From assembly GCF_947501405.1 (NCBI RefSeq), contig NZ_CANMVK010000002.1, positions 1,054,001 to 1,118,000 of the forward strand: a stretch of 64,000 nucleotides of DNA, given 5' to 3'. The notes below the pieces were generated by a model, which was given only the letters and a program-made list of their open reading frames with translations, made no database searches and was not told where the DNA came from. Origin of the DNA: an uncultured Hoeflea sp. GTDB lineage: Bacteria; Pseudomonadota; Alphaproteobacteria; Rhizobiales; Rhizobiaceae. The position numbers were made by a program, and so were the translations under genes. Below, in pieces: positions 16,136 to 52,382 of the stretch (position 1 is its first letter; every line of letters starts with the position of its first letter).

Positions 16136-16602
16136 GACGCGGACGGTCCTCGGTCTGAAGAAACAGGAATGGACCCCGGGTCGTGGCGCGAAAGCCGGAT
16201 GGGTGTCCGGAGTTTCTGTTACTTGGCTTGGCGGCCGTGGTCCATAACCCCTTGGACGGATTGGCGGGTCTGAATGGCGGCAGCCAATCACTTTGCGTTG
16301 CCGATGGTGACGCGACGTGACGGCGGGTCAACTGGAAGGGGCCAATCGGATTCGTCGCTGTCACTCGTTTGAGAACCGGATTTGGACCGATTGCGCAACA
16401 ATCCTGTCGATGGCTTGATCCTTTGGATCGATTTAGTCGCGGACTGAGCCAATTTGCGCATTGTCATTCCCTCATCATGCCGTTAGCACCCGGTGAAAAG
16501 CTTGGCGCGAGCCGGGGCTGATCGGGTTTGGTGAAAGCGGGATCTGCCGCTCAAACTCGGGATTGGCGAGCGTGCAGGCCACCACAGAGGGAAGATCGGG
16601 TG
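16136..16602. other. 467-bp divergent gap before ppdK
   Basis: This gap holds the promoters of the aminotransferase (leftward) and ppdK (rightward). The only structure noted is a small perfect hairpin, GATCC-TTT-GGATC, at 16417-16429. No convincing small gene or RNA is visible. Confidence 0.4.
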
Positions 16603-19269
<2,667 letters not shown>

Positions 19270-36924: not shown

Positions 36925-39900
36925 TCACGTCCGCATCACCCGGTAGATCGCGGGGATCACCAGCACGGTGAGCGCGGTTGAGGACGCCAATCCGAACAGG
37001 AGAGAAATCGCCAGCCCCTGGAAGATCGGATCGGTCAGGATCACCGCCGCCCCGATCATTGCGGCCAGCGCCGTCAGGATGATCGGCTTGAAGCGGATCG
37101 CCCCGGCCTCGATCAACACCGGCGTCAGCGGTGTGCCCGGCTCATGGGCATGGCGGATGAAATCCACCAGCAGGATCGAGTTGCGCACGATGATGCCGGC
37201 CAGTGCGATAAAGCCGATCATCGAGGTGGCAGAAAACGGCGCACCAAACAGCCAGTGACCGCCGAGGATGCCGATGAAGGTCAGCGGCACCGGCGTCAGG
37301 ATCACCAGCGGCGCCTTGAATGAGCCGAACTGCGCCACCACCAGAATGTAGATGCCAAGAAGCGCCACGCCGAAGGCCGCGCCCATGTCGCGGAATGTCA
37401 CCCAGGTGACTTCCCATTCGCCGTCCCACAACAAGGTCGAGACCTGTTCATCGGCGGGCTGACCGTTGAGCGCGATGACCGGTTTTTCGAGTTCGCTCCA
37501 GTCCATTGCATCCAGAGCCTCCTGAACCGCGAGCATGCCATAAAGCGGGGCTTCGTAATCGCCGGCCAGTTCGGCCATCACCATCTCGGCGGCGCGGCCA
37601 TTGTGCCGGAACACCGGAAATGAGGCGCGTTCCTCGGCGATTTCGACCACATCACCCAGTTCCACGATGCTGCGGTCGCCCGGAAGCACATTGGCGGGGA
37701 TCGGCGTGGTCAGAAACCGTTCGTCGAGAAGCCGGTCCGCGCGCGACCGTTCAAGCCGGATGGCGATTGGCGCACGGCCGTCGCCCCGGTGCGAGTAACC
37801 CACCGTCTGACCGGTGTTCAAAATGGCGATGGTGTCGAACACGTCGCGTTCCTCGACCCGGAAGAACTCCAGCTCGTCGGTGGAAATCGTGATCCGGGCG
37901 CGGGTTGCCGGCTGCCCCCAGGAATTGTCGATATCGACGATGTAGGAGGCCGAGCGGAAAGCTTCCTCGACCCGCGCTGCCACCGCGCGCCGGGTTTCGG
38001 AGTCCGGGCCGTAGATCTCGGCAAGCAGGGTCGCCATCACCGGGGGGCCGGGCGGCGGCTCCACCACTTTGAGGCTCGCACCCGGGGGCAGGGGGATTTC
38101 CAAGATCCGCTGGCGCAGATCGAGCGCGATATCGTGGCTGGTGCGTTCGCGCTCGTGCTTGGCGGTGAGGTTGAGCGCCACATCGCCCATCTCAGGTTCC
38201 GAGCGCAGGAAGGAGTGCCGCACCAGCCCGTTGAAATTGAAGGGCGCCGCCGTGCCCGCATGGGTCTGGGTCGAGTGCACTTCCTCAAGCTCGAGCGCCT
38301 CGCGCGCCACCGCTTGCACCACCGCGTCTGTGGCTTCCACGGAGGTGCCTTCGGGCATGTCGATCACCACCGAGAGCTCGGATTTGTTGTCGAACGGCAA
38401 CAGCTTCACCGTCACATCCCTGGTGTAAAACAGCGACAGCGATCCCAGCGTCAGAACGCCCACGGAAATCAGAAACAGCCACGAGCGGCCCTTGCTGGCA
38501 AGCACCGGCCCCGCCACGGCGCGATAGAGCCGGCCCAAAAGCCCGCCGGCTTCTGCGCCGGTTTCATCGCCGTGATGCATCGGTGCGCGGCCGGCCACCT
38601 TCAGCATCAGCCAGGGCGTGACCATCACCGCCACGAAGAACGAAAACACCATGGCCGCCGACGCATTGGCCGGAATCGGGCTCATATAGGGGCCCATCAT
38701 GCCCGAGACGAACAGCATCGGCAGCAGCGCCGCCACCACCGTCAGCGTGGCGACAATGGTCGGGTTTCCGACCTCGGCGACCGCCTCGATGGCCGCCTGA
38801 CGGCGTTCGCGGCCGTCTCCCATACCCCAGTGGCGGGCGATGTTCTCGATCACCACGATGGCGTCGTCGACCAGAATGCCGATCGAAAAGATCAGCGCAA
38901 ACAGCGACACACGGTTAAGCGTGTAGCCCATCACCCGCGAGGCAAATAGCGTCAGCAAGATGGTCACCGGAATCACCACCGCAACCACCAGCGCCTCGCG
39001 CCAGCCGATCGCCACCCAGACCAGCACGATGATCGAAACCGTGGCGAGGCCGAGATGGTAGAGCAGCTCATTGGCCTTCTCATTGGCAGTCTCGCCATAA
39101 TCGCGTGTCACTTCCACCGCCATGGATTGCGGGATCAGCGATCCCTTGAGGTGATCGGTGCGCTCAAGGATCTGCTCGGCCACCAGCACGGCATTGGCGC
39201 CGGCACGTTTGGCCAGCGCCAGCGTCACGGCGGGCGTGCGCTCAACGCCACCATCGTGCGAACGCTTCACCGTGGCCACGATCTCGGGCCTGTCGTCGGT
39301 GGCGAATGAGATATCTGCAAGATCGCGCACATAGACCGGGCGGCCATCACGGGTGGTGACCAGAAGATTGCCGATCTCGGCGGGCGCATACAGCGTTTCG
39401 CCGATCATCAGCTCGGCGGCCCGGCCTTCAACCATCACTTGGCCTGCGGGAAATGCGCGGTTGGCGCTCGAAACCTTGCCCGCCAGTTGCTGCAGCGTCA
39501 CCCCGTAGAGCGCCAGCCGTTCCGGATCGGGCGCAATGCGAATGATCTCGTCGGCGTCGCCCACCAGATAGGTCAGCCCGACATCGTCGATCTTGGCGAG
39601 CTCGGTGCGCAGTTCGCGCGCGACCCGGGTAAGGTCATTGGCGGTGGCGGTTTCGCCGCCCTCATCCGATGGCGTCAGCGTAAGGGAAACGATCGCCACA
39701 TCGTCAATACCGCGACCGACAATCAGCGGTTCCGGTACGCCCACCGGAATGCGGTCGATGTTGGCGCGCACCTTGTCGTGAACCCGCAGGATCGCGGTGT
39801 CGGTCCGGGTGCCGACAATGAAACGCGCGGTCACCAGCACGCTGTTGTCCGCGCTTTGCGAATAGACATGCTCGACCCCGTCGATGCTTTTGACGATGGT

Positions 39901-40134
39901 CTCCAGCGGTTCGGTCACCAGCTTGACCGCATCGTCGGCCTTCAGCCCCGGCGCGGAAAGCATGATGTCGACCATCGGCACCGAGATCTGCGGCTCTTCC
40001 TCGCGTGGCAGCGTCATCAGCGCCACCAGCCCGAAGGCAAACGCCGCCAGCAGAAACAGAGGTGTCAGCGGAGAGACGACAAAGGCGCGGGTCAGTTCAC
40101 CCGCGATGCCGAGCGAGGAGGTGTCGGGCTTCAT
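36925..40134 (-). CDS. RND efflux pump permease (first system)
   Basis: A 1069-residue inner-membrane proton antiporter of the RND superfamily with twelve predicted helices in the usual 1+5 / 1+5 arrangement. The charged relay on helix 4 is visible in ILVDDAIVVIENI. Two large periplasmic loops form the porter and funnel domains. The N-terminus contains TLPREEEPQISVP, a signature of a subgroup distinct from AcrB. It overlaps the upstream adaptor gene by 4 bases (ATGA). The substrate is unknown. No outer-membrane channel gene is present, so it probably uses one encoded elsewhere. Confidence 0.93.
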   Translation of the reverse strand: MKPDTSSLGIAGELTRAFVVSPLTPLFLLAAFAFGLVALMTLPREEEPQISVPMVDIMLSAPGLKADDAVKLVTEPLETIVKSIDGVEHVYSQSADNSVLVTARFIVGTRTDTAILRVHDKVRANIDRIPVGVPEPLIVGRGIDDVAIVSLTLTPSDEGGETATANDLTRVARELRTELAKIDDVGLTYLVGDADEIIRIAPDPERLALYGVTLQQLAGKVSSANRAFPAGQVMVEGRAAELMIGETLYAPAEIGNLLVTTRDGRPVYVRDLADISFATDDRPEIVATVKRSHDGGVERTPAVTLALAKRAGANAVLVAEQILERTDHLKGSLIPQSMAVEVTRDYGETANEKANELLYHLGLATVSIIVLVWVAIGWREALVVAVVIPVTILLTLFASRVMGYTLNRVSLFALIFSIGILVDDAIVVIENIARHWGMGDGRERRQAAIEAVAEVGNPTIVATLTVVAALLPMLFVSGMMGPYMSPIPANASAAMVFSFFVAVMVTPWLMLKVAGRAPMHHGDETGAEAGGLLGRLYRAVAGPVLASKGRSWLFLISVGVLTLGSLSLFYTRDVTVKLLPFDNKSELSVVIDMPEGTSVEATDAVVQAVAREALELEEVHSTQTHAGTAAPFNFNGLVRHSFLRSEPEMGDVALNLTAKHERERTSHDIALDLRQRILEIPLPPGASLKVVEPPPGPPVMATLLAEIYGPDSETRRAVAARVEEAFRSASYIVDIDNSWGQPATRARITISTDELEFFRVEERDVFDTIAILNTGQTVGYSHRGDGRAPIAIRLERSRADRLLDERFLTTPIPANVLPGDRSIVELGDVVEIAEERASFPVFRHNGRAAEMVMAELAGDYEAPLYGMLAVQEALDAMDWSELEKPVIALNGQPADEQVSTLLWDGEWEVTWVTFRDMGAAFGVALLGIYILVVAQFGSFKAPLVILTPVPLTFIGILGGHWLFGAPFSATSMIGFIALAGIIVRNSILLVDFIRHAHEPGTPLTPVLIEAGAIRFKPIILTALAAMIGAAVILTDPIFQGLAISLLFGLASSTALTVLVIPAIYRVMRT

Positions 40135-41093
40135 GGCAGCACCACCTTGTCGCCCGCTGAAAGGCCGCCGATGATTTCGATCCGTTCGCCGTCTGCCTGC
40201 GTGGCCCCAAGAATGACGGCGCGTTCGATTGCTTCGCCGCGATGATCTTCCACACGGACAAAATCAACCCCGTGGCGGGTGCTGACGGCGGCCGCGGGTA
40301 CCAGCAGCGCCTGACGCATGCCGACCGGCACCCTGACCAGAATGCGGGCATTGACGAAGGCGGTATCAAGCTGGTCGACCTCGACATCGGCAATCACCCG
40401 GCCATTGTCGATTTGCGGGTAGATCTTGGCGAGCCGTCCCTTGCTTTCAGAGCCCTGGGCGCCGATCCGCAGTTCCGCGCCTTCCACCAGATCTCCGGCG
40501 AAGCGCTCGGGAAGGGCAAGCCGCAGAAAGAACCCGCCCGAGCCGACGGTCGCTACCGGCTCGCCCGGCATGATCACAGCGCCTCGGGTGACCGGCACAG
40601 TCAGAACCCGGCCATCGGCAGGGGCAAGGATCGCGCCTTCCGTTTGTTGCTGGGTCAGCACCGCGCGGTTGGCTTGTGTGGAGGCGATCTGGTTGCGCGT
40701 CACCTCCACATCGGTGGAGAGTTGCGCCAGCCGTTGCCGGGTCACCACACCCCGGTCGACGAGTGTCTCGCCACGTATGAACTCGGCTTCCGCGGTTTCA
40801 AGCTGCGCCGCAAGGGCTGCCAGTTGGGCGTCGAGCGCGGCGATCTGGAAAGCTATTTTGTCGTCCCTGACCAGTCCGAGTTGCTGGTCGGCCGTCACCA
40901 GATCACCTTCGCTGATTGAAAGCTGTTCAATAATCCCGCCAATGCGCGCGCGGGCCGGAACCACATCGCGCGATTCTACCCGCGCCTGAACGGCCTTCCA
41001 TTCGGTGATTTCGCTCATGGACAGCGTCAGCGTCTCCGCCTGGGCCACGCTGGATAAAAGCATCGCAAGAGCTGCAAGGCTGAGCGTTTTCAT
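40131..41093 (-). CDS. RND efflux periplasmic adaptor (first system)
   Basis: A 320-residue membrane-fusion protein with a signal peptide (MKTLSLAALAMLLSSVAQAE). It is short for the family, with a compact coiled-coil hairpin (about 75-130), lipoyl halves RIGGIIEQLSISEGD and ILAPADGRVLTVPV, and a beta-barrel domain. AGAGG lies before ATG 41093. It couples the permease encoded immediately downstream to an outer-membrane channel. An AT-rich stretch about 100-140 bases upstream is a probable promoter/operator. Confidence 0.9.
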   Translation of the reverse strand: MKTLSLAALAMLLSSVAQAETLTLSMSEITEWKAVQARVESRDVVPARARIGGIIEQLSISEGDLVTADQQLGLVRDDKIAFQIAALDAQLAALAAQLETAEAEFIRGETLVDRGVVTRQRLAQLSTDVEVTRNQIASTQANRAVLTQQQTEGAILAPADGRVLTVPVTRGAVIMPGEPVATVGSGGFFLRLALPERFAGDLVEGAELRIGAQGSESKGRLAKIYPQIDNGRVIADVEVDQLDTAFVNARILVRVPVGMRQALLVPAAAVSTRHGVDFVRVEDHRGEAIERAVILGATQADGERIEIIGGLSAGDKVVLP

Positions 41094-41190
41094 GGGTTTG
41101 CCTCTTTGCATCAGATCGGGTGTGGACGGGGAACCGGGAGCAATGACGTTGTCCGGCATTGCCAAAGGCCAATCCCCCACAGGCGATTGT

Positions 41191-41277: not shown

Positions 41278-42396
41278 TCAGGCCAGTTTTTCGTCCAGCA
41301 AAGAGACCGGAAAGCTCATGGCATTGATCAGCCGGTAGAAGGCCGCGGCGTCGGTGCAAGTGTCCATCGCCATGTCGAAATGCAGAACCTGGTCCTTCAC
41401 GCCGTAAAATCGCGGCAGTTTGGGCTTGCGCCTGAATTCGGGCTTGAAGGCTGCGAGCGCCCGTTTGCCGCGCCAGGCGATGATCGTCCCGGCATAGGCC
41501 TGTTTTTGCGCATGAAAGACTTCACCGGTAGCAGCCGTCTCGCAGTCGCGGGCGCAGGCCTGAATGAACCCGTCTTCCCAGCCGTCGAGCTCGATGCCGT
41601 AACGCCGTTTGAATGTCTCGATGGCCAGCGCCTTGCGCGCAGCGCTGCCTTCATGTCCTGAAAACGGAAAGCCATTCACGGCGTCTGCGATCTCGACCAC
41701 CGGCCTGGGCGCGGGGAGGGCGCACTGCACCGACAAGGGCCGCTCCCACATCACCATGCGTTTGGCCAGCATTACCACCTTGCACAGATTGTCGGTTCCG
41801 GGCTGCGCCTGCTCGGCATACACCCCGGAGAAGGCATCGCGAATCCGGTCAAGCACGTCGCGCCGTACTGCTCCGTGCCAGGCGCTGAAATGACACTCCG
41901 GCTGGTCACCTGCAGACTGCCAGTAAAACAATTGCCGCATCATCTCCGTTTGTTCCGGCAACAGCAATTTGCTGCCGGTTGGAATGCGGGCGATTTCGCT
42001 CTGCTCGCGTGCGTCTGGCGGAATGAATTCGGCCCGGCCCCAGCACAGGGCGTCGGCATCGGGCGCCCGTTTCAGCGTCGCCCGCAGCACCTCGCAGATT
42101 GCCGGGTCGGCATAATCCGCGGCATCGATGATCGTGATCCAGCCGCCCCCCGCTTCGGCGATCAAAAGGTTCCAGGCGTCGCTTGGGTTGGCGGCACGGG
42201 ATTCCGGGGCGATCAGCCGCAGCCGCGGATCCCGGATGTCTGAGGCGAGGCCGCCTTGAGCCTTACCCGCGGCGCTGCGAAAATCTCCGATGACAATCTC
42301 GAAACCGGTGTCCGGATTTTCGAGCATTTGCGCAAGCGTCCGCTCGAGCTCCGGCTGGGATTTCAAAACCGGGATGCAGATCGACAACAGCGTCAC
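41278..42396 (-). CDS. Glycosyltransferase family 2-like protein with altered DXD motif
   Basis: A 372-residue protein with a GT-A nucleotide-sugar-binding fold at the N-terminus (LLSICIPVLKSQPELERTL ... FEIVIGDF). At the place where the neighbouring paralogue has the metal-binding Asp triplet (VIGDDDYLDP) this one reads IIDAADYADP, so metal binding or catalysis may be altered. The remaining 250 residues align in style with the paralogue (HGAVRRDVLDRI, CKVVMLAKRMVMWERPLSV). The two genes overlap by 4 bases. It probably modifies a surface polysaccharide or protein; donor and acceptor are unknown. Confidence 0.78.
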   Translation of the reverse strand: MTLLSICIPVLKSQPELERTLAQMLENPDTGFEIVIGDFRSAAGKAQGGLASDIRDPRLRLIAPESRAANPSDAWNLLIAEAGGGWITIIDAADYADPAICEVLRATLKRAPDADALCWGRAEFIPPDAREQSEIARIPTGSKLLLPEQTEMMRQLFYWQSAGDQPECHFSAWHGAVRRDVLDRIRDAFSGVYAEQAQPGTDNLCKVVMLAKRMVMWERPLSVQCALPAPRPVVEIADAVNGFPFSGHEGSAARKALAIETFKRRYGIELDGWEDGFIQACARDCETAATGEVFHAQKQAYAGTIIAWRGKRALAAFKPEFRRKPKLPRFYGVKDQVLHFDMAMDTCTDAAAFYRLINAMSFPVSLLDEKLA

Positions 42397-43595
42397 GGAG
42401 CAAACACCTTGGCACCTGATACCAGGCTCTTCACCGGCAGGATCGCGTGTTCGCCGAACCGGTAGAACTCCGCCGGGGTCTGTGCTCCGATATCGGCCTC
42501 GCGCACCATCAGCCGGTCTTCATTGAGCCCGGTGATGCGGTTGATTGAGCGCGGCGGGCTGAAGGGCGCGGGCTTGAAAAGCGCCGCCCATCTGCCACCC
42601 TCCCACAGGGCGAAGCCTTGCATGAAACAGGCGACCTTGGCGTCATACTCCGCCTCGGTCGCAGAGAATTTGCATTCGTCCATGGCGGCATGGGCGAAAT
42701 TGGCGCCAAAACCATTCAGATCAACGCCGTAGGTGTGGCAAAACCACGCTGTGGTGACCGCAATACTCAGGCACAGCGACCCTCCGCGCGCCTTGAGTTC
42801 AAACGGGAAATACGGCTGTTCCAGAGAGATGCAATCGCGTGTTTCGGCCTCGAATGTCGCCATTCGCGACGCCATGGCGCTGGCCGATAGATTGGCGGCC
42901 GAGTTCGACGCCGCACAGGCCCCCAGAACCGAGAATGGCCGCTCGGAATGAACGATCAACCGCGCCTGCGCCACCACCTTGCATGTGCTTTCCCAATCCA
43001 CATTGGGATGCTCGAAATAGCGCCCGCCATAGCTCGATTTGATCCGCTCCATCAGCGATCGCTTGACCGCGCCGTGATAGATGCCGACCCCGACGCCGGG
43101 GCGGCGCTTGCGCTCACTCCATTGGAAAAGCTGGTCGGCAAGCGCCTCGGCGGAAAGCAGACGCGTCGCGTGACCGGTCGGAATGCCCGCGAGCGTGGGC
43201 ACCGGCCGGTTGTCCGGCCACTGATAGCTCATGCATTCCCAGCTGATCGCATCAGCATCGCGATGCAGAACCTCGTAGCGCCGGATCAGTCCGGTTAGCC
43301 GTGGGTCGAGATAGTCATCATCGCCAATTACCGAGATCCAGCGGCCCCGCGCAGCCTCCACCGCCCGCTCCCAATTGTCGACCATCGGCAATACGGTGTT
43401 CTCCGGCGCGATCAGCCGGAAGCGGGGATCCTTTGGCTGCCGTGCGAAATGATCGGCCAGAACGGACGGGTCGTCGGAGTTGTCGGCGACCACGACCTCA
43501 AAATCGTTGCCGTCACTTTCCGCCAGCGCCGCGATGGTCTGGATACAATAGGCCTGACGATTGCGCGTCGGCAGGCAGATTGTCATATGAACCAT
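42393..43595 (-). CDS. Glycosyltransferase family 2 protein
   Basis: A 400-residue GT-A-fold transferase. It opens with the GT2 pattern TICLPTRNRQAYCIQTIAAL, followed by FEVVVADNSDD and the metal/nucleotide-sugar motif VIGDDDYLDPRL. The C-terminal 250 residues are shared with the next gene (IYHGAVKRSLMERI, CKVVAQARLIVHSERPFSV), indicating an old tandem duplication. The starts and stops overlap (ATGA), so the two are co-translated. No other polysaccharide genes are adjacent. Confidence 0.85.
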   Translation of the reverse strand: MVHMTICLPTRNRQAYCIQTIAALAESDGNDFEVVVADNSDDPSVLADHFARQPKDPRFRLIAPENTVLPMVDNWERAVEAARGRWISVIGDDDYLDPRLTGLIRRYEVLHRDADAISWECMSYQWPDNRPVPTLAGIPTGHATRLLSAEALADQLFQWSERKRRPGVGVGIYHGAVKRSLMERIKSSYGGRYFEHPNVDWESTCKVVAQARLIVHSERPFSVLGACAASNSAANLSASAMASRMATFEAETRDCISLEQPYFPFELKARGGSLCLSIAVTTAWFCHTYGVDLNGFGANFAHAAMDECKFSATEAEYDAKVACFMQGFALWEGGRWAALFKPAPFSPPRSINRITGLNEDRLMVREADIGAQTPAEFYRFGEHAILPVKSLVSGAKVFAP

Positions 43596-43705: not shown

Positions 43706-44671
43706 TCAGATCTCCACTTCGATGGCGCTGCCAGCGGCCTTGGCGCGGCTGACCGCCATCGCCGCCACCGCCAGATCCTGAAGCCCGACACCGGTGCCAT
43801 CAAACAGGGTAATCTCATCCTCACTCGTGCGTCCGGGATGCGAACCGTTGATCACATCGCCAATGGCTGTGATGTCGCTATCCGCGATCAGCCCGGCGCC
43901 AATGGCATGCTGGCACTCGCCCAGTGTCACGGACTGCGCCACCTCATCGGTGAATGCCGTTGCGGCGGCAACCAGCTCCGCCTCGACCTCCTGCTTGCCC
44001 ACCGTGTCGGTGCCCATGCACGACAGATGCGTACCGGGCCGGATCTGCGCGTGCTTGAGGATGGCGGCGAAACTCGAGGTGATGGTGATGATCACATCGG
44101 CCTGCGCCCCCAGCTCATCGAGACTGACCGCTTCGAACGGCAGGCCGATTTCCGCGCAGACATCAGCCAGCCGCGACAGCATCTCCGGATGCAGGTTCCA
44201 GCCGACCACCCGCTCAAAGGCGTGCGCCTTGACCGCTGCCCGCAGTTGAAACGCCGACTGATGACCGGCGCCAACCATGCCCAGCACCCTGGCGTTCTTG
44301 CGCGCCAGCCGCTTGATCGCCACAGCCGAGGCGGCTGCGGTGCGAAGCGCTGTCAGCAGATTGCCACCCACCATGGCGCTTGGCCGTCCGGTGTCCGGAT
44401 CGAACAGGAACACCGTTGACTGATGATTGGTCAGGCCCCTGTCCATATTGCCGGGCCAGTAGCCGCCGGATTTGAGACCCAGCGCCAGCCCGGCGCGGTC
44501 GAAGCCGGATTTGAACCCGTAGAGCGCGTCGGCATGGCCGAGCGCCTCGCGCACCACCGGAAAGTTCCGCGCGTCGCCCCGCGCCATTGCGGCAAACACG
44601 GCCTCAACCGCCTCATAGGCGGCCTCCGGCGTAACCAGATCGGCAATCAGTTTTTCAGGCACGATCAGCAT
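43706..44671 (-). CDS. bhcD: Iminosuccinate reductase BhcD (ornithine-cyclodeaminase family)
   Basis: A 321-residue NAD(P)H-dependent enzyme of the ornithine cyclodeaminase/mu-crystallin family. Visible are the substrate-side Arg/Lys segment YGFKSGFD, LGLKSGGYWPGN, the Rossmann motif LGMVGAGHQSAFQLRA and the conserved FDGTGVGLQDLAVAA. In the beta-hydroxyaspartate cycle this family member reduces iminosuccinate to L-aspartate. The assignment comes from its position downstream of the aldolase, dehydratase and aminotransferase genes of that cycle; on its own it could equally be another imine reductase. Start 44671 has AGGGAG upstream. An 81-base gap with a hairpin separates it from bhcC. Confidence 0.88.
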   Translation of the reverse strand: MLIVPEKLIADLVTPEAAYEAVEAVFAAMARGDARNFPVVREALGHADALYGFKSGFDRAGLALGLKSGGYWPGNMDRGLTNHQSTVFLFDPDTGRPSAMVGGNLLTALRTAAASAVAIKRLARKNARVLGMVGAGHQSAFQLRAAVKAHAFERVVGWNLHPEMLSRLADVCAEIGLPFEAVSLDELGAQADVIITITSSFAAILKHAQIRPGTHLSCMGTDTVGKQEVEAELVAAATAFTDEVAQSVTLGECQHAIGAGLIADSDITAIGDVINGSHPGRTSEDEITLFDGTGVGLQDLAVAAMAVSRAKAAGSAIEVEI

Positions 44672-44701
44672 GCCGCACTCCCTGTTGGATTGTCTCAATA
44701 A

Positions 44702-44729
44702 AGGCCCGGCCATGCTTGTGGCCGGGGCT
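44702..44729 (-). terminator. Intercistronic hairpin between bhcC and bhcD
   Basis: In the transcribed (minus) direction an 8-bp GC stem, extended by two more pairs past a mismatch, encloses the loop CAAGCA and is followed by CTTTATTG. It may be a partial terminator or mRNA-stabilising element that sets bhcD expression relative to the upstream genes. Confidence 0.5.
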
Positions 44730-44752
44730 CATTTTCGTTTGTGGATCTGGCG

Positions 44753-45916
44753 CTAGTAGGCTTTGCCGCGGGCTGACACCGGCCACAGGCTTTCAACCCG
44801 GCCATTGCGCACCCCGACATACCAGTCATGCACATTGCAGGTCGGATCGCAGTGCCCCGGCACCAGCTTGAGCTTGTCATTGACTTTGAGCACGCCGTCC
44901 GGATCGGCGATCACGCCATGTTCGTCGGAGCATTTGACGTAAGTCACGTCCGAACGCCCGAACACCACCGGCAATCCGCTGTCGACCGATTGCGCCTTAA
45001 GGCCCGCGTCGCAGATTGCCTTGTCGGCCTTGGCGTGGCTCATCACCGAGGTGAGCAGGAACAGTGCGTTTTCAAATTCGGTCTCGTCGATGCGTTTGCC
45101 GTCCTGATCGAGAATGCGGCCGTAATCGGCGTCCATGAAGGCGTATGAGCCGCATTGCAGCTCGTTGTAGACGCCGGAATTGCCCTCGAAATAGTAGCTG
45201 CCAGTGCCGCCGCCGCCGACAATGTCGCAATCGATGTCGTCGGCTTTGAGTGCGTCGACCGCGTCCTTGACCATCGCCACAGCGATGTCGATCTTGGCCT
45301 TGCGCTCATCATAGCTGTCAAGGTGCTGCATGGCGCCCTGATAGGCCTGAATGCCCGAGAACTTGAGCCCTGGAGCGGCCGCGATCGCCTTGGCCAGCGC
45401 CACCACTTCAGGCGTTGTTGTGACACCGCAGCGCCCGGCGCCGCAATCGATCTCCACCAGGCATTCGATCTCGGTCCCGTGGCGTGTGGCCGCCTCCGAC
45501 AGATCGTCGATATTGGCCAGATCATCGACACAGCAGATGGTGCGTGCGCCGAGTTTGGGCAGCCGCGCCAGCCGGTCGATCTTGGCGGGGTCGCGCACCT
45601 GATTGGACACCAGCACGTCCTTGATGCCGCCGCGCGCGAAGACCTCCGCCTCCGACACCTTCTGGCAGCACACGCCGACAGACCCGCCAAGCCGTTCCTG
45701 CAGTTTGGCCACGTCGACGGATTTGTGCATCTTGCCATGCACCCGGTGGCGCACGCCCATCTGTTTGGCATGCTCGCCCATCTTGATGATGTTGCGTTCA
45801 AGCGCGTCGAGATCGAGCACCAGGCACGGGGTCTGGATATCGGCCTCGGCCATGCCGGGCAGGGCGGGCACGTCATAGCCGACCTCAAGCCCGTCGAGTT
45901 TGTTCATTGCGTTCAT
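44753..45916 (-). CDS. bhcC: Beta-hydroxyaspartate aldolase BhcC
   Basis: A 387-residue PLP enzyme of the D-threonine aldolase/DSD1 (alanine-racemase-fold) family. The PLP Lys is in HGKMHKSVD. The C-terminal metal site typical of the family is visible in GHCDPTCNVHDW. In the cycle it joins glycine and glyoxylate to give erythro-beta-hydroxyaspartate. Relatives cleave D-threonine or 3-hydroxy-D-aspartate, so the specific activity is inferred from the operon. The start at 45916 has GAGGAGG 5 bases upstream. It follows bhcB by 10 bases. Confidence 0.9.
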   Translation of the reverse strand: MNAMNKLDGLEVGYDVPALPGMAEADIQTPCLVLDLDALERNIIKMGEHAKQMGVRHRVHGKMHKSVDVAKLQERLGGSVGVCCQKVSEAEVFARGGIKDVLVSNQVRDPAKIDRLARLPKLGARTICCVDDLANIDDLSEAATRHGTEIECLVEIDCGAGRCGVTTTPEVVALAKAIAAAPGLKFSGIQAYQGAMQHLDSYDERKAKIDIAVAMVKDAVDALKADDIDCDIVGGGGTGSYYFEGNSGVYNELQCGSYAFMDADYGRILDQDGKRIDETEFENALFLLTSVMSHAKADKAICDAGLKAQSVDSGLPVVFGRSDVTYVKCSDEHGVIADPDGVLKVNDKLKLVPGHCDPTCNVHDWYVGVRNGRVESLWPVSARGKAY

Positions 45917-45926
45917 GAATTCCTCC

Positions 45927-46907
45927 TCAGCCCTTCAACCAGGGCAAATGATCCAGATCGACGTTGCCGCCGGTGATGATGACGCCAATGCGTTTGCCGC
46001 GAAAGACCTCCGGGTTGCGCAGGATCGTTGCCAGCGGAACCGCGCAGGACGGCTCCATGACGATCTTCATGCGTTTCCAGGTGATTTTCATCGCCTCGAT
46101 GATTTCGTCCTCCGACGCGGTCAGCACATCGGTGACGTATGATTTGACAAAGTGCCAGGTAAGCTCCTTGAGCGGAACCTTGAGCCCGTCGGCCACTGTC
46201 ACCGGCGCATCGTCGGCGATGATATGGCCGGCCCGGAACGAACGCGCCGCGTCATCGGCCTGATCCGGTTCGGCGGCGTAGATCTTCATCTCCGGCGCCA
46301 GCCTCGACAGCGTCAGGCAGGTGCCAGAGATCATGCCGCCGCCGCCGATCGGCGCGATTACCGCATCGAGTCCATCGGTCTGCTCGAGCAGCTCACGCGA
46401 ACAGGTGGCCTGTCCGGCGATCACCCGGGGATCATTGTAGGGATGGACGAATTCTGCGCCGGTCTCTGCCACCACCTTGGCGAAGGTCGCCTCGCGGCTC
46501 GAGGTCGACGGTTCGCACTCGATGATCTTGCCGCCATAGCCGCGCACCGCGTCCTTCTTGGCCTGCGGTGCGGTGCGCGGCATCACCACGGTGCAGGGGA
46601 TGCCGCGTCGGCCGGCTGCATAAGACAGCGACAGCGCATGATTGCCCGATGAATGGGTAGCGACACCGCGCTGCAGCATGTCTTCTGACAGGCCGAACAC
46701 CGCATTGGAGGCGCCGCGCACCTTGAAAGCCCCGGCCTTCTGAAAATTCTCGCATTTGAAGAACAGTTCGGCACCGGTGAGCGCGTTGAGATAGCTCGAT
46801 GTCAGCACCGGCGTGCGGTGGATGTGGGGCATGATGCGCTCATGCGCGGCAATGACATCATCGAATGTGGGAATGGTCATCGCAACAGGGTCGGAATGAA
46901 CGGTCAT
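45927..46907 (-). CDS. bhcB: Beta-hydroxyaspartate dehydratase BhcB
   Basis: A 326-residue fold-type II PLP enzyme (threonine/serine dehydratase family). PLP Lys lies in FQKAGAFKVRGASNAV, substrate loop in HSSGNHALSLSYAA, and the phosphate-binding glycine loop in IGGGGMISG. It lacks the C-terminal ACT domain of biosynthetic threonine deaminase, as expected for hydroxyaspartate dehydratases. In the cycle it turns beta-hydroxyaspartate into iminosuccinate. Start 46907 is chosen for the GAGG upstream; ATG 46880 is an alternative. It is 8 bases from the bhcA stop. Confidence 0.9.
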   Translation of the reverse strand: MTVHSDPVAMTIPTFDDVIAAHERIMPHIHRTPVLTSSYLNALTGAELFFKCENFQKAGAFKVRGASNAVFGLSEDMLQRGVATHSSGNHALSLSYAAGRRGIPCTVVMPRTAPQAKKDAVRGYGGKIIECEPSTSSREATFAKVVAETGAEFVHPYNDPRVIAGQATCSRELLEQTDGLDAVIAPIGGGGMISGTCLTLSRLAPEMKIYAAEPDQADDAARSFRAGHIIADDAPVTVADGLKVPLKELTWHFVKSYVTDVLTASEDEIIEAMKITWKRMKIVMEPSCAVPLATILRNPEVFRGKRIGVIITGGNVDLDHLPWLKG

Positions 46908-46915
46908 GGCGGGCC

Positions 46916-48106
46916 TCACGCGGCTTTGGTTTGAACTGTGTTCTGGCTGGAGCGATAAAACTCCTGGGCGCTGGCGACACCCGAGCCGAGACGGACCGGC
47001 AGTCCCAGATCGACCATCGTCATTTCCGCCGTGGCGATACCCGACAGCGCCATCACATCGGTCAGACTGCCCAGATGGCCGATGCGGAACACCTTGCCCG
47101 CCACCTCACCCAGGCCGACACCAAAGGCGACGCCGTATTTCTGCGCGGCGTGGGTGACAATGCGGGTGCCGTCAAAGCCGGGCGGCGTGACGATGGCGCT
47201 GACCGTATCGGAGTAAATCGACGGCTTTTTCGCACACAGCGTCAGTCCCCAGGCCTGAACCGCACGGCGCACGCCCTCGGCCAGCCGGTAGTGCCGGGCA
47301 TAAACATTGTGCAGGCCTTCGGCTTCCAGCATGGAGATTGCATGGGCCAGGCCGGCGATCAGTCCGACCGGCGGCGTATAGGGAAAACCGCCACCGGCAT
47401 TGGCCTTGATCATGTCCTGGAAATCGAAAAAGCAACGCGGCGATTTCGCTCCCGTCATCGCCGCGATGGCTTTCTGGCTCAGCCCCAGGATCGAGAGCCC
47501 GGCCGGCAGCATGAAACCCTTTTGCGAACCGGTGATGGCGGCGTCGACGCCCCATTCATCCATCCGGAAATCCATCGAGGCGATCGAGCTCACGCCGTCG
47601 ACCAGCAGCAGTGCCGGGTGCGACGCGGCATCGAGCGCCCGGCGCACGGCGGCGACATCGGAGCGAACGCCGGTGGCCGTCTCGTTGTGAGTGACCAGAA
47701 CCGCGCGGATCTTGTGCGCCTTGTCAGCGCTAAGTGCCGCTTCGATCGCCTCCGTGGGCGCCCCCAGGCCCCATTCGGTTTCGATGATTTCGGCATTCAT
47801 GCCCTGGCGTTGACACAGATCTATCCAGCGATGCGAGAACATGCCATGCCGCGCAGCCAGGACCGTATCGCCCGGCGACAGGAGATTGGTGACCGCCGCT
47901 TCCCATGCGCCGGTGCCGGTGGCGGGAAAGATCACCACTTCACCCTCGCGGGTCTTGAGGATCCGTTTGATGCCCGCCAGCGCAGGATGCAGGATCTCGG
48001 CGAAGGCCGGCGAGCGGTGATCCATCGTCGGCAGGTCGATCGCCCGGCGCAACGCATCAGGAATGTTGGTGGGGCCGGGAATGAAAACCGGATTTTGTGA
48101 CGACAT
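46916..48106 (-). CDS. bhcA: L-aspartate:glyoxylate aminotransferase BhcA
   Basis: A 396-residue class V aminotransferase of the serine-glyoxylate aminotransferase type. It begins SSQNPVFIPGPTNIPDALR, has the PLP Lys in TGSQKGFMLPAGLS and the Asp of LLLVDGVSSIASMDF. In the cycle it transfers the amino group of aspartate to glyoxylate, giving glycine for the aldolase and releasing oxaloacetate. A methylotroph-style serine-glyoxylate aminotransferase would look similar, but the three downstream genes favour BhcA. GGGAGG lies 5 bases before ATG 48106. It is the first gene of the four-gene operon, divergent from an IclR regulator. Confidence 0.9.
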   Translation of the reverse strand: MSSQNPVFIPGPTNIPDALRRAIDLPTMDHRSPAFAEILHPALAGIKRILKTREGEVVIFPATGTGAWEAAVTNLLSPGDTVLAARHGMFSHRWIDLCQRQGMNAEIIETEWGLGAPTEAIEAALSADKAHKIRAVLVTHNETATGVRSDVAAVRRALDAASHPALLLVDGVSSIASMDFRMDEWGVDAAITGSQKGFMLPAGLSILGLSQKAIAAMTGAKSPRCFFDFQDMIKANAGGGFPYTPPVGLIAGLAHAISMLEAEGLHNVYARHYRLAEGVRRAVQAWGLTLCAKKPSIYSDTVSAIVTPPGFDGTRIVTHAAQKYGVAFGVGLGEVAGKVFRIGHLGSLTDVMALSGIATAEMTMVDLGLPVRLGSGVASAQEFYRSSQNTVQTKAA

Positions 48107-48188
48107 CGAAACCTCCCATCGCGGCCGGAGCCGCCTTGTCTTCGAGTGCTGACAAAATACGGGGCGGGCCGAATGCACGCAATTTTTT

Positions 48189-48203
48189 TGAAAAACTATT
48201 TCA
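48189..48203. promoter_or_regulatory. IclR-type palindrome 1 in the bhcA-bhcR gap
   Basis: TGAAA-AACTA-TTTCA, a perfect 5-bp inverted repeat with a 5-base spacer, lies 83 bases upstream of bhcA. IclR-family regulators (IclR, KdgR) bind palindromes of this TGAAA/TTTCA kind. It is about 73 bases, close to seven helical turns, from a second palindrome of the same layout. Confidence 0.5.
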
Positions 48204-48259
48204 TTATTGCGATTTGGTGCGTATATATCTGAAATATAAACCAAAACGGTTTTTTCATT

Positions 48260-48278
48260 GGTGGAACGGCGTTTCACC
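48260..48278. promoter_or_regulatory. IclR-type palindrome 2 next to bhcR
   Basis: A 19-base palindrome GGTGGAACGGCGTTTCACC with a single mismatched pair lies 18 bases before the IclR-type gene. Its core TGGAA-N5-TTTCA has the same layout as the palindrome at 48189. The position fits autorepression of the regulator. Confidence 0.55.
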
Positions 48279-48295
48279 GAAAATCGGAGGTAGCC

Positions 48296-49117
48296 ATGAA
48301 ACAGGCCCAGGCACGCAATCGCGGACGTCCCAAATCCTTCCACGACAAGTCCGAAAGCGCCGTTATCCAGTCGCTCGACCGGGCCATTGATGTGCTCAGG
48401 ACCGTGGCTGCCGCCGATGGCCTGTCATTGACCGAGATTGCCGAAGCCGGCGGCCAGTCACCAGCCACGGTCTACCGAATCCTCACCACCTTCTCCCGTC
48501 ACCGCTTTGCCGAGTTCGACGAGGTCAACCAGCTCTGGTTCGTCGGGCTCGAAGCCTTTCGCACCGGGATGGGATTTCTGGGCCGCACCCAGTTGAGCGA
48601 CCGGGCCCGGCCGATCATGCAGCGGATCATGGCCGAGACTGGCGAGACCGCAAATCTCGCCATTCTCGATGGCGGCGAGGTGATCTTTGTCGGCCAGATC
48701 GAGACCCATGAGCCGATCCGCGCCTTTTTCCGGCCCGGCACCCGCAGTCCCGGCCACGCCTCGGGCATCGGCAAGGCAATCATGGCGCATTTTGATGAAG
48801 AGGCCCTGGCCGCCCGGCTGCCATTGGAACTCACCGCGCATACACCCAGCACGATTACCGATCATGCGGCGCTCAAGCGTGAACTCGCGGAGATCCGCGC
48901 GCGCGGCTGGGCGGTCGACAATGAAGAGCGCACCCAGGGCATGCGCTGCATTGCCGCGCCGGTTTTCAATTCCTTTGGCGAGGCAGTGGCCGGCGTGTCG
49001 CTGTCCGGGCCATCGGTGCGGGTGCGGCCGGAGCGGGACGCCGAGTTCGGCGCACTGATCGCCCGGGCGGCTGACGAGATCACGCGCTCAACCGGCGGTA
49101 CGCCGCCCCGACCATGA
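48296..49117 (+). CDS. bhcR: IclR-family regulator BhcR
   Basis: A 273-residue regulator with an N-terminal winged helix (SLTEIAEAGGQSPATVYRILTT with its basic surroundings) and a C-terminal GAF-like effector domain (ETANLAILDGGEVIFVGQIE, GHASGIGKAIMAH, GWAVDNEERTQGMRCIAAPV). The equivalent gene in beta-hydroxyaspartate-cycle clusters controls bhcABCD and senses glyoxylate, which fits a small-acid-binding IclR domain. It is divergent from bhcA across a 189-base gap that carries two palindromes. GGAGG lies 7 bases before the start. Confidence 0.9.
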   Translation: MKQAQARNRGRPKSFHDKSESAVIQSLDRAIDVLRTVAAADGLSLTEIAEAGGQSPATVYRILTTFSRHRFAEFDEVNQLWFVGLEAFRTGMGFLGRTQLSDRARPIMQRIMAETGETANLAILDGGEVIFVGQIETHEPIRAFFRPGTRSPGHASGIGKAIMAHFDEEALAARLPLELTAHTPSTITDHAALKRELAEIRARGWAVDNEERTQGMRCIAAPVFNSFGEAVAGVSLSGPSVRVRPERDAEFGALIARAADEITRSTGGTPPRP

Positions 49118-49273
49118 GCCGGCATCGCCTGCAAGTCCACCCGGCGCTCCGCTTCGGCGCGGACGGCATTGACCTGGCTTTGCGGATCGGGTCTGCTGAA
49201 CCTTGGCTGTACTACCGTTTTCACAGAAAACGCGTTCCGGTGCGGCCGCTGGCTTAACTCTCTGGGAGCGCCC

Positions 49274-49528
49274 ATGCGACTGGTTCTGATCGATTTTCGC
49301 CACCCCTTCTTCCGCCCAGTGACACGCCGTGTTGTGATTTTCGCGCTGGTGGCGATCTGGACCGTGGTGGAGTTCTTTCAGGGCTCCACCGGTTGGCTGA
49401 TCTTTTTTTTAGCGCTCAGCGCCTATGTCGGCTGGGGTTTCTTTCTCTCGGGCCAGCCCGATGAACCACCGCCCCAAACCGCCGACAAGGAACCGCCACC
49501 GCCGCCCCCATCGCCTGACGCATCTTGA
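49274..49528 (+). CDS. Small membrane protein, DUF3329-like
   Basis: An 84-residue protein with two closely spaced hydrophobic helices (VVIFALVAIWTVVEFF and GWLIFFLALSAYVGWGFFL) and a proline-rich cytosolic tail. The opening LIDFRHPFFRPVTRR recalls short DUF3329-type proteins, but I am not sure. GGGAG lies 6 bases before ATG 49274. It ends 61 bases before a bidirectional terminator. Function unknown. Confidence 0.65.
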   Translation: MRLVLIDFRHPFFRPVTRRVVIFALVAIWTVVEFFQGSTGWLIFFLALSAYVGWGFFLSGQPDEPPPQTADKEPPPPPPSPDAS

Positions 49529-50804: not shown

Positions 50805-52382
50805 TCAAAGTGAAAAGCTGCGCTCCACACCAATTCGGTTCAAAAAGGCTTTGTCGTGGCTGACGACGAGGATCGCGCCGTCATATGCGTTGAGCGCCAT
50901 CTCCAACATCTCTACGGAATCGATATCGAGGTGGTTGCTCGGCTCGTCCAGAATGAGGAGCTGTTTTGGCTGACTGTGGCCGAGGGTGCAGGCCAATCCC
51001 GCACGCAAACGCTGTCCCCCGCTGAGCGTCCCGACCTGTTGCAAGGCGGCATCTCCCCGGAAAAGGAAGCGCGCGAGTATGGCACGCCTGTCGTTTTCGC
51101 AGGCATCTGGATCGAGACGGGCGAAGGCATCGCTCACCGTTTCATTGGGGTCGAACATGCTCATGTCTTGGTCCAACCGCGCTGCGGGAACATGCAATGC
51201 CACCTGGCCAGCCTGAGCTTCAAGATCACCGGTCATACATGCAAGAAGCGTCGATTTGCCCGATCCGTTCGGCCCCTCAATCACGATGCGCTCGGGACCA
51301 CGTATTAAAAACGAGACATTTTGAAAAACGGGCTGATCGTCTCTGTAACCAAAGGTCAGGTTTTCGACCTGCAACACATTTCGGCCACGCGCCAATCCGG
51401 ATCTGGGTATGTCCATTGCGAGAGGCTGGAGAATTTCAACCGCTTCGCGTGCAGTGTCCAGCTCAGTCTGCGCTTCGCCCATTTTCCGGGCGCGCAACCT
51501 TGCACCGGATCCGCCCGATCCTTCGCTTCGCTCCTTGGCGGCATCAAGTAGAATCTTCGGTTGGCTGCCAGAGGCTCGTAGCTGGCGGCCCTGCCGGTCA
51601 GTCCGCGCTTTGCGATCAGCTGCAATTCGCGCTCGGGCGCTGGTCTCCGCCAATGCCCGCTCTGCCCGCGCCAGTTCGCCTCCCGCCGAGGCAAGTTCGG
51701 CCAGCTTCATATCCTGGTAGGCGTCGTAATTCCCGCCATACAGCCGTGCGCCCAGCGTAGTCAGTTCAACTATCGCATCCATGGCGCCAAGCAGGGAGCG
51801 GTCGTGGCTCGCAACTATAACGCATCCTTGCCATGCTCGAACGGCGTCAATGACCTGCAGACGCCCTTTTTGATCCAGATGGTTCGTCGGCTCGTCCAGA
51901 AGAAGCGCATCTGGCGCGGTGAACAGGAGAGCAGCGAGGCCAGCGCATGTGCGCTGGCCACCCGACAGGGAACCGAGCGGCGCGTCCAGTGGCAGGTGGT
52001 CGAGGCCCATACTGGTCAGCGCTGCTTTCAGTCTTGCCTCTAACGTCCAGTCAGCATCCGCGAGATCTTCCGCAGTGGCGTCTCCCGCCTCGGCGCGAGC
52101 GAGGATTGCAAGTTGATCCCGCACACCGAACAGGTCGGCAAGAGTATCACCCGTTTGCTGCTCAGGATTCTGGCGCAGGTAGCCGATTGAACCAGGCAGG
52201 GTGACTGCGCCGGACGCAGGTGCGATCTCACCGGCGATCAGACGTAGCAGCGTGGTTTTGCCAGTCCCGTTTCGACCGACAAGGCCGGTACGCCTCGGTC
52301 CAAACGTTAGGTTGAGATTATCGAAAAGGCAGGTGCCGTCAGGGGTATGCCAGCTCAAGCCGGCGAGAACGATGGAAGACAT
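50805..52382 (-). CDS. ABC-F family ATPase
   Basis: A 525-residue soluble protein with two ABC domains and no membrane segments. Domain 1 has Walker A GRNGTGKTT, signature LSGGQRT and Walker B LLLDEPTNHLD. Domain 2 has GPNGSGKST, LSGGQRL and LLILDEPSNHLD. Both catalytic glutamates are present. The linker (about 220-320) is long and basic, rich in Ala, Arg and Lys, as in ribosome-acting ABC-F proteins. Family members either regulate translation or protect ribosomes from antibiotics; which applies here cannot be told from sequence. GC content is below the flanks, and it lies between the tRNA-Pro repeats. Confidence 0.9.
   Translation of the reverse strand: MSSIVLAGLSWHTPDGTCLFDNLNLTFGPRRTGLVGRNGTGKTTLLRLIAGEIAPASGAVTLPGSIGYLRQNPEQQTGDTLADLFGVRDQLAILARAEAGDATAEDLADADWTLEARLKAALTSMGLDHLPLDAPLGSLSGGQRTCAGLAALLFTAPDALLLDEPTNHLDQKGRLQVIDAVRAWQGCVIVASHDRSLLGAMDAIVELTTLGARLYGGNYDAYQDMKLAELASAGGELARAERALAETSARARIAADRKARTDRQGRQLRASGSQPKILLDAAKERSEGSGGSGARLRARKMGEAQTELDTAREAVEILQPLAMDIPRSGLARGRNVLQVENLTFGYRDDQPVFQNVSFLIRGPERIVIEGPNGSGKSTLLACMTGDLEAQAGQVALHVPAARLDQDMSMFDPNETVSDAFARLDPDACENDRRAILARFLFRGDAALQQVGTLSGGQRLRAGLACTLGHSQPKQLLILDEPSNHLDIDSVEMLEMALNAYDGAILVVSHDKAFLNRIGVERSFSL

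Follow-up and report, generated by a model that had tools for sequence, protein, structure and literature searches.

Four enzymes, BhcA to BhcD, make up the beta-hydroxyaspartate cycle (BHAC) of Paracoccus, into which glyoxylate enters and from which oxaloacetate leaves. A locus resembling the genes of this pathway lies at positions 43,706–49,117 of a 64,000-nucleotide stretch of DNA from an uncultured Hoeflea sp. (contig NZ_CANMVK010000002.1, positions 1,054,001–1,118,000), which we call the window. Does this locus encode a BHAC, and how did it come about that several relatives in the same genus carry only one of its genes? Judged from their sequences, the five genes very probably form such a cycle, which would turn two molecules of glyoxylate into oxaloacetate with no loss of carbon.

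Identity of the five genes

The first-pass annotation had described four adjacent enzyme genes on one strand and a divergent IclR regulator, and we found them where it had placed them. The families it had named also stood, the Pfam domains along the window being OCD/mu-crystallin, alanine-racemase-N with a D-serine-dehydratase domain, PALP, aminotransferase class V and IclR. The open reading frames (ORFs) span 43,706–44,713, 44,753–45,916, 45,927–46,919 and 46,916–48,343 on the minus strand and 48,296–49,117 on the plus strand. The GTG-initiated ORF at 46,916–48,343 overlaps bhcR, and because the NF045640 profile match begins at its residue 80, we moved the start of bhcA to the ATG at 48,106. 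The start of bhcD is probably the ATG at 44,671, the profile match beginning at residue 15 of the longer ORF, and that of bhcB is probably Met14 of the GTG ORF (46,880), in which the match begins at residue 16.

Each protein was compared with the Bhc families, and all five passed the NCBI curated (NCBIfam) equivalog cut-off for their own Bhc name. The predicted L-aspartate-glyoxylate aminotransferase gene bhcA (46,916–48,106, minus strand; 396 aa) scored 720.5 bits with NF045640 (cut-off 650), the beta-hydroxyaspartate dehydratase gene bhcB (45,927–46,880, minus strand) 605.8 bits with NF045641 (cut-off 550), the D-3-hydroxyaspartate aldolase gene bhcC (44,753–45,916, minus strand; 387 aa) 756.2 bits with NF045642 (cut-off 690), the iminosuccinate reductase gene bhcD (43,706–44,671, minus strand; 321 aa) 585.7 bits with NF045643 (cut-off 500), and the IclR-type regulator gene bhcR (48,296–49,117, plus strand; 273 aa) 375.8 bits with NF045644 (cut-off 350). 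Among the matches listed, which for BhcB are 25 of 40 families, rival families all fell below their own cut-offs. Five neighbouring equivalog-level matches in canonical order are far beyond chance. The best PDB match of BhcD is the iminosuccinate reductase 6rqa (464 bits), and that of BhcC is the D-3-hydroxyaspartate aldolase 6qkb (677 bits), the best D-threonine aldolase reaching 334 bits.

The cut-offs, the gene order and phylogenetic trees together support the earlier proposal of a BHAC set in canonical A-B-C-D order with a divergent bhcR. It had been considered that the proteins might instead group with D-threonine aldolases, serine-glyoxylate aminotransferases or ornithine cyclodeaminases of other pathways, and no such grouping was found. 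In rooted trees with 48 BHAC rows each, the BhcA, BhcB and BhcD of the window fell among BHAC rows and away from the related-enzyme outgroups; BhcA and BhcB were nested within the BHAC rows, and BhcD lay among them with a very long outgroup branch. A further tree, of bhcA, bhcB and bhcD, drew on 57 of 97 loci. The window BhcC was placed inside the BhcC rows of full clusters in a careful 41-row tree described below. Its Lys62, His355 and Asp357 are present, as in all rows aligned; we take Lys62 to be the position of the pyridoxal phosphate (PLP) lysine, and His355 and Asp357 to be metal-ligand positions. These three residues and His57 are the same in all 59 other rows with adjacent bhcB and bhcD. 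The D-threonine aldolases 4v15 and 7dib share with the window BhcC the family, the PLP lysine position and the metal-ligand His and Asp positions, but they score half or less of the bits of 6qkb and have Leu instead of His at position 57.

The G+C content across the cluster (0.62–0.63) is similar to that of most surrounding DNA. A hairpin lies between bhcC and bhcD (44,705–44,726), with a weak T run on either strand. A promoter and terminator scan of the region gave no clear excess, terminator-like sites numbering 5 with 3.8 expected.

BhcR and the control region

The divergent promoter region between bhcA and bhcR comprises 189 bp (48,107–48,295). It contains a putative BhcR box, which on the minus strand reads TGAAATAGTTTTTCAAAAAAATTGC (48,179–48,203), starts 97 bp upstream of the bhcA ATG and matches the pattern TGAAANNNNTTTTCANAAAAATTGC with 0 mismatches. 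With up to 3 mismatches allowed, TGAAANNNNTTTTCANAAAAATTGC occurs in 84 of 95 bhcR-bhcA gaps, as compared with 0.15 per 95 in a first-order shuffled control, a contrast that is somewhat overstated by the derivation of the pattern from the same gaps; nor do related gaps count as independent. The orientation of the box relative to bhcA is identical in 84/84 gaps.

A 2024 mBio study of P. denitrificans (PMC11323563) describes a potential palindromic site upstream of bhcA, reports that glyoxylate weakens the binding of BhcR to DNA, and reports that bhcR mutants do not grow on glycolate or glyoxylate. The bhcRABCD locus of P. denitrificans (PMC11323563) and the window are alike in their five genes, their order and the divergent IclR regulator. 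The potential site described there and the putative window box are both palindrome-like and both upstream of bhcA. Numbered by hand on the IclR alignment, the window BhcR agrees with P. denitrificans BhcR at 8 of the 9 effector-site residues in Table 1 of the same paper (PMC11323563).

Proposed pathway and glyoxylate supply

What we read directly from the DNA is which five genes are present and in what order, together with the conserved box, the residues of the BhcR effector site and the glc-like genes; the reactions and their regulation (the latter from PMC11323563) are carried over by analogy from the Paracoccus pathway. By that analogy, BhcA would transaminate glyoxylate to glycine with aspartate as amino donor, and BhcC would join glycine and a second glyoxylate to beta-hydroxyaspartate. 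BhcB would then dehydrate this product to iminosuccinate, which BhcD would reduce to aspartate, so that aspartate could serve again as donor and exit as oxaloacetate. BhcR would act as a glyoxylate sensor and regulate bhcABCD, perhaps by way of the box between bhcA and bhcR.

The first-pass annotation had seen no glycolate oxidase genes in the window, and candidates for them lie outside it: a glcDEF-like set is found on the same contig of the window genome (G000:C2:706571-711226), about 343 kb before the first base of the window. The GlcE and GlcF proteins of this genome score 309.7 bits (cut-off 284) and 478.4 bits (cut-off 333), and a LysR-type gene lies near the set. Unlike in P. denitrificans, these genes are hundreds of kilobases from the bhc cluster, and no GntR-type glcR, another difference from that species, was found among the three glc neighbours scanned. 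Glyoxylate may thus be made from glycolate by GlcDEF-like proteins encoded elsewhere on the contig. The ppdK gene noted earlier for pyruvate phosphate dikinase (PPDK) is present in the window (16,528–19,269, plus strand; TIGR01828, 1374 bits, cut-off 843), and assigning it a role in the cycle is a guess. Growth of this organism on glycolate, the activity of its enzymes and its use of PPDK are what we infer from these genes.

Several observations weigh against a complete cycle of the Paracoccus type. No BHAC structure appeared among the PDB matches listed for BhcA (36) and BhcB (60 of 126), and the A, B, C and D gene trees disagree on the nearest kin outside the genus. The GlcD-like protein scores below both GlcD cut-offs (526 vs 897 and 462 vs 568), and BhcR has Pro, not Thr, at effector-site position 143. 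Since every enzyme family here has relatives outside the BHAC, one might suppose that the enzymes degrade 3-hydroxyaspartate or another hydroxy amino acid and take no part in glyoxylate assimilation. We regard this as very improbable, given four enzymes and a regulator in canonical order above BHAC cut-offs, and glyoxylate-site residues retained in BhcR. Another reading is that the cluster is intact in sequence yet dying in this strain, as might be suspected from its being missing or reduced in 16 of the 18 genomes of the genus. The frames are open, though, the box is perfect, and the ratio of nonsynonymous to synonymous substitution (dN/dS) between the window and its relative G201 is 0.10–0.13 for the five genes, indicating purifying selection on all of them; decay is accordingly hardly to be expected.

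Lone bhcC genes in the genus

Among the 18 genomes of the genus, only the window genome (G000) and G201 pass the BhcA, BhcB and BhcD cut-offs and have a full cluster. Eight others (G205, G139, G199, G203, G204, G206, G209 and G212) have a lone bhcC-like gene with 70–83% identity to the window BhcC, and the remaining eight, two of which are only 75–77% complete, are without a match at 1e-100. The BhcC cut-off is passed by five of the eight lone genes. In the stretches read around them, bhcA, bhcB, bhcD and bhcR were not found at any of the eight, and a scan of the 300 bp upstream of each gene did not find the BhcR box, the best match having 8 mismatches. No publication on lone bhcC genes turned up in literature listings from which most subscription journals were missing.

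All eight lone genes and both full clusters lie near the same RND efflux pump genes, at varying distance. In the window these are a permease and an adaptor (36,925–41,180, minus strand), which mark the bhcC neighbourhood in the relatives. In G203, two genes, one of them a BCCT transporter, stand in between, and G046 has the pump, the glycosyltransferases and the small gene described below, with bhcC absent there. In genus g14, of which three genomes were examined, G013 and G116 have a lone gene by the pump, and in G186 the cluster is full and the pump is absent from 20 kb around it.

The lone genes differ from clustered bhcC at specific residues. Residue 57 is His in 62 of 62 clustered rows (the 59 loci defined by bhcB and bhcD beside bhcC, at not all of which bhcA was seen, together with the window, G201 and the 6qkb chain), and Leu in seven of the eight lone genes of the genus, G205 having His. 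The same seven genes have Thr251 in place of Asn. Outgroup rows have Leu57 in 11 of 14, His in 2 and Val in 1, counted without L124, L235, L242, L243 and L264, of which L264 has His and the other four have Leu. Altogether, at the limits used, the seven lone genes are set apart from the others by ten positions, at two of which it is unclear which side shares the commonest outgroup state. Lys62, His355 and Asp357 are retained in the lone genes. The lone genes are under purifying selection, dN/dS being 0.19–0.32 between lone genes and 0.13–0.18 in three pairs of lone and full-cluster genes, with dS often near saturation.

History of the locus

We think it somewhat probable that the full cluster is ancestral here, that the relatives lost bhcR, bhcA, bhcB and bhcD, and that the bhcC they kept became a stand-alone gene with Leu57 and Thr251, G205 being an early stage in which His57 was kept. 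We favour this breakup because Leu57 occurs in seven of the eight lone genes as opposed to His in all 62 clustered BhcC rows, and we rank it above a replacement of a resident gene, which is considered below.

The careful BhcC tree, comprising 41 of 86 rows and leaving out the long rows L242 and L243, is consistent with breakup. In it, all of these genes fall within the full-cluster rows, where G201 branches first, followed by the window, by G205 and by the remaining lone genes; the supports are 100/95, 98/86, 98/92 and 100/98, and none of the branches was flagged as long. An approximately unbiased (AU) test rejected a tree in which the 28 rows with bhcB and bhcD form one clade with the lone genes outside it (p 0.0114, 35.5 log units). 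Two quick trees (86 and 50 rows), built with closer outgroups and more BHAC rows, likewise placed the lone genes inside the BHAC clade with the window and G201 (98–99); there the lone genes of the genus are accompanied by others from g14 and from one or two further groups.

Several results stand against the breakup. At positions 57, 171, 348 and 362 the lone genes have the commonest outgroup state, so that under breakup these changes would be reversals. No relics of other bhc genes lie beside any of the eight lone genes; a search for bhcA, bhcB, bhcD and bhcR gave only DNA matches of 24–49 bases and one 43-residue BhcA match (30%, E 0.013), which we take as chance or short flank homology. The first BhcC tree, with a distant outgroup, had put the lone genes below the BHAC clade and the window BhcC near the base, and an earlier AU test gave p 0.459, its quick tree being 28 log units short of a constrained search. 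An unrooted rpoB tree makes G205 sister to the window genome (100/99) and places G203 with G000, G205 and G201. The order in BhcC and the order of species thus do not fully agree, and breakup would require at least two losses, or an exchange of lone genes between species. The rpoB tree with outgroups did not resolve the base of the genus and gave g14 as the nearest of ten outgroups (87/98). The tree of the pump permease joins G205 to the window weakly (84/79) and G203 to g14 (94/92).

The first BhcC tree had also raised the idea that the cluster originated in this genus. That tree had very long outgroup branches. The denser and more careful trees and the AU test point away from such an origin, and we reject it, as the BhcA and BhcB of the window and G201 are nested among BHAC rows.

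A less likely history is that a lone bhcC-like gene by the RND pump was resident first and that a foreign cluster took the spot, its bhcC replacing that of the resident. Such a history would suit the presence of lone genes by the pump in eight genomes of the genus and in two of the three examined genomes of g14, the nearest outgroup on rpoB, and some BHAC clusters are carried by plasmids that are predicted to be conjugative. The third g14 genome, G186, with its full cluster and no nearby pump, argues the other way, as does the AU test (p 0.011). The diagnostic positions speak on both sides, since the lone genes share the commonest outgroup state at four of the ten, as given above, and the full-cluster genes share it at four others (156, 251, 308 and 335).

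Replacement would also be in keeping with a mosaic G205 bhcC, which its sequence makes possible. Of the 21 one-sided residues of G205, those shared with the window and G201 make up 12 of 14 before residue 290 and 2 of 7 beyond that point (Fisher p 0.017, with the cut at residue 290 picked after viewing the data). Eight DNA breakpoint tests gave a break at codon 280–281 in four (p 0.0005–0.003), one of these with G201 as second parent, and a break at codon 350 in one (p 0.0065). The three others were null, including one that took G201 and lone genes as the parents of G205 (p 0.75), and these count against replacement.

Distribution beyond the genus

In the family, 19 of 199 genomes (20 places) exceed the BhcC cut-off, and in the order 51 of 397, lone genes included in both counts. 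The contig search took in 80 of 589 relatives, and the matches it listed are to be read as "at least" counts. At 71 of the 80 named genome loci bhcA, bhcB, bhcC and bhcD occur together, with bhcR also at 65 of these 71; eight of the remaining nine loci lie where the stretch ends near the cluster. At L020, bhcB, bhcC and bhcD are present, and the 7 kb upstream are without a bhcA or bhcR match. Plasmid records matched in 119 cases, 21 of them predicted to be conjugative. The order bhcR-A-B-C-D occurs on plasmids of Sinorhizobium, Rhizobium, Methylobacterium, Ruegeria and Aminobacter, and on a Rhizorhabdus plasmid whose genes are annotated under generic names; on the Sinorhizobium and Rhizobium plasmids the cluster directly adjoins glycolate oxidase genes.

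Partnerless genes are also found elsewhere: the searches of the family and the order gave 47 short loci, five of which had neither bhcB nor bhcD within 1.5 kb, one of the five from this genus. Those of L285, L286 and L288, from other families of the order, are near peptide-type ABC transporter genes, with a UxuA-like gene also nearby in L286. Because lone genes with His57 occur outside the genus (L264, L285, L286 and L287; L288 has Leu57), His57 is no proof of a full cluster.

Neighbouring genes

The RND pump was also considered as a BHAC component, which was ruled out, none of the 80 named BHAC loci having this pump at the thresholds used. In L265, from a genome of another family (G219), a full bhc cluster lies beside an RND pump in another orientation, with a permease 71% identical to that of the window. 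Between the pump and bhcD lies a family-2 glycosyltransferase gene (42,393–43,595, minus strand), paired with another at 41,278–42,396; the pair stands between the pump and the lone bhcC in five of the eight relatives, and in G212 the glycosyltransferases lie about 6 kb from bhcC. A paralogous tandem pair is found at G000:C2:509207-511560, and similar pairs occur in many genomes of the genus. Beyond bhcR, a small ORF without a Pfam match (49,169–49,528, plus strand) has a homologue that adjoins the lone bhcC in seven of the eight relatives.

Farther on, an ABC-F type protein gene (50,805–52,382) lies where G+C, profiled in 2-kb steps, is lowest (0.56), and its product was matched at E 1e-150 or better in 2 of 18 genomes of the genus, with at most 82 candidates scored per genome. 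Adjoining the lone bhcC of G203, a gene of L120 (10,897–12,879) encodes ice-binding-like and autotransporter domains in one protein.

Implications

The window cluster is a textbook member of the BHAC; what is new is its context in the genus, the history of the locus and the partnerless BhcC genes. It adds a BHAC cluster that is chromosome-borne, or at least on a megabase contig, in a genus where 2 of 18 genomes have one, and its conserved box provides a simple marker for testing control by BhcR. Because five of the eight partnerless genes of the genus pass the BhcC cut-off, a BhcC label alone is no proof of the cycle, and surveys of glycolate assimilation that count bhcC should also require bhcA, bhcB and bhcD.

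Specialists would be drawn to how the locus came about and to the BhcC genes without partners. It is a tentative reading, which we hold a little short of even confidence, that the lone genes make up a new stand-alone aldolase family that arose from the breakup of the cluster, stayed under purifying selection, lost His57 and took another hydroxy amino acid as substrate. If this is true, the window, G201, G205 and the other lone genes present stages of the breakup side by side, and the genus would be a natural series for the study of one pathway enzyme living on alone.

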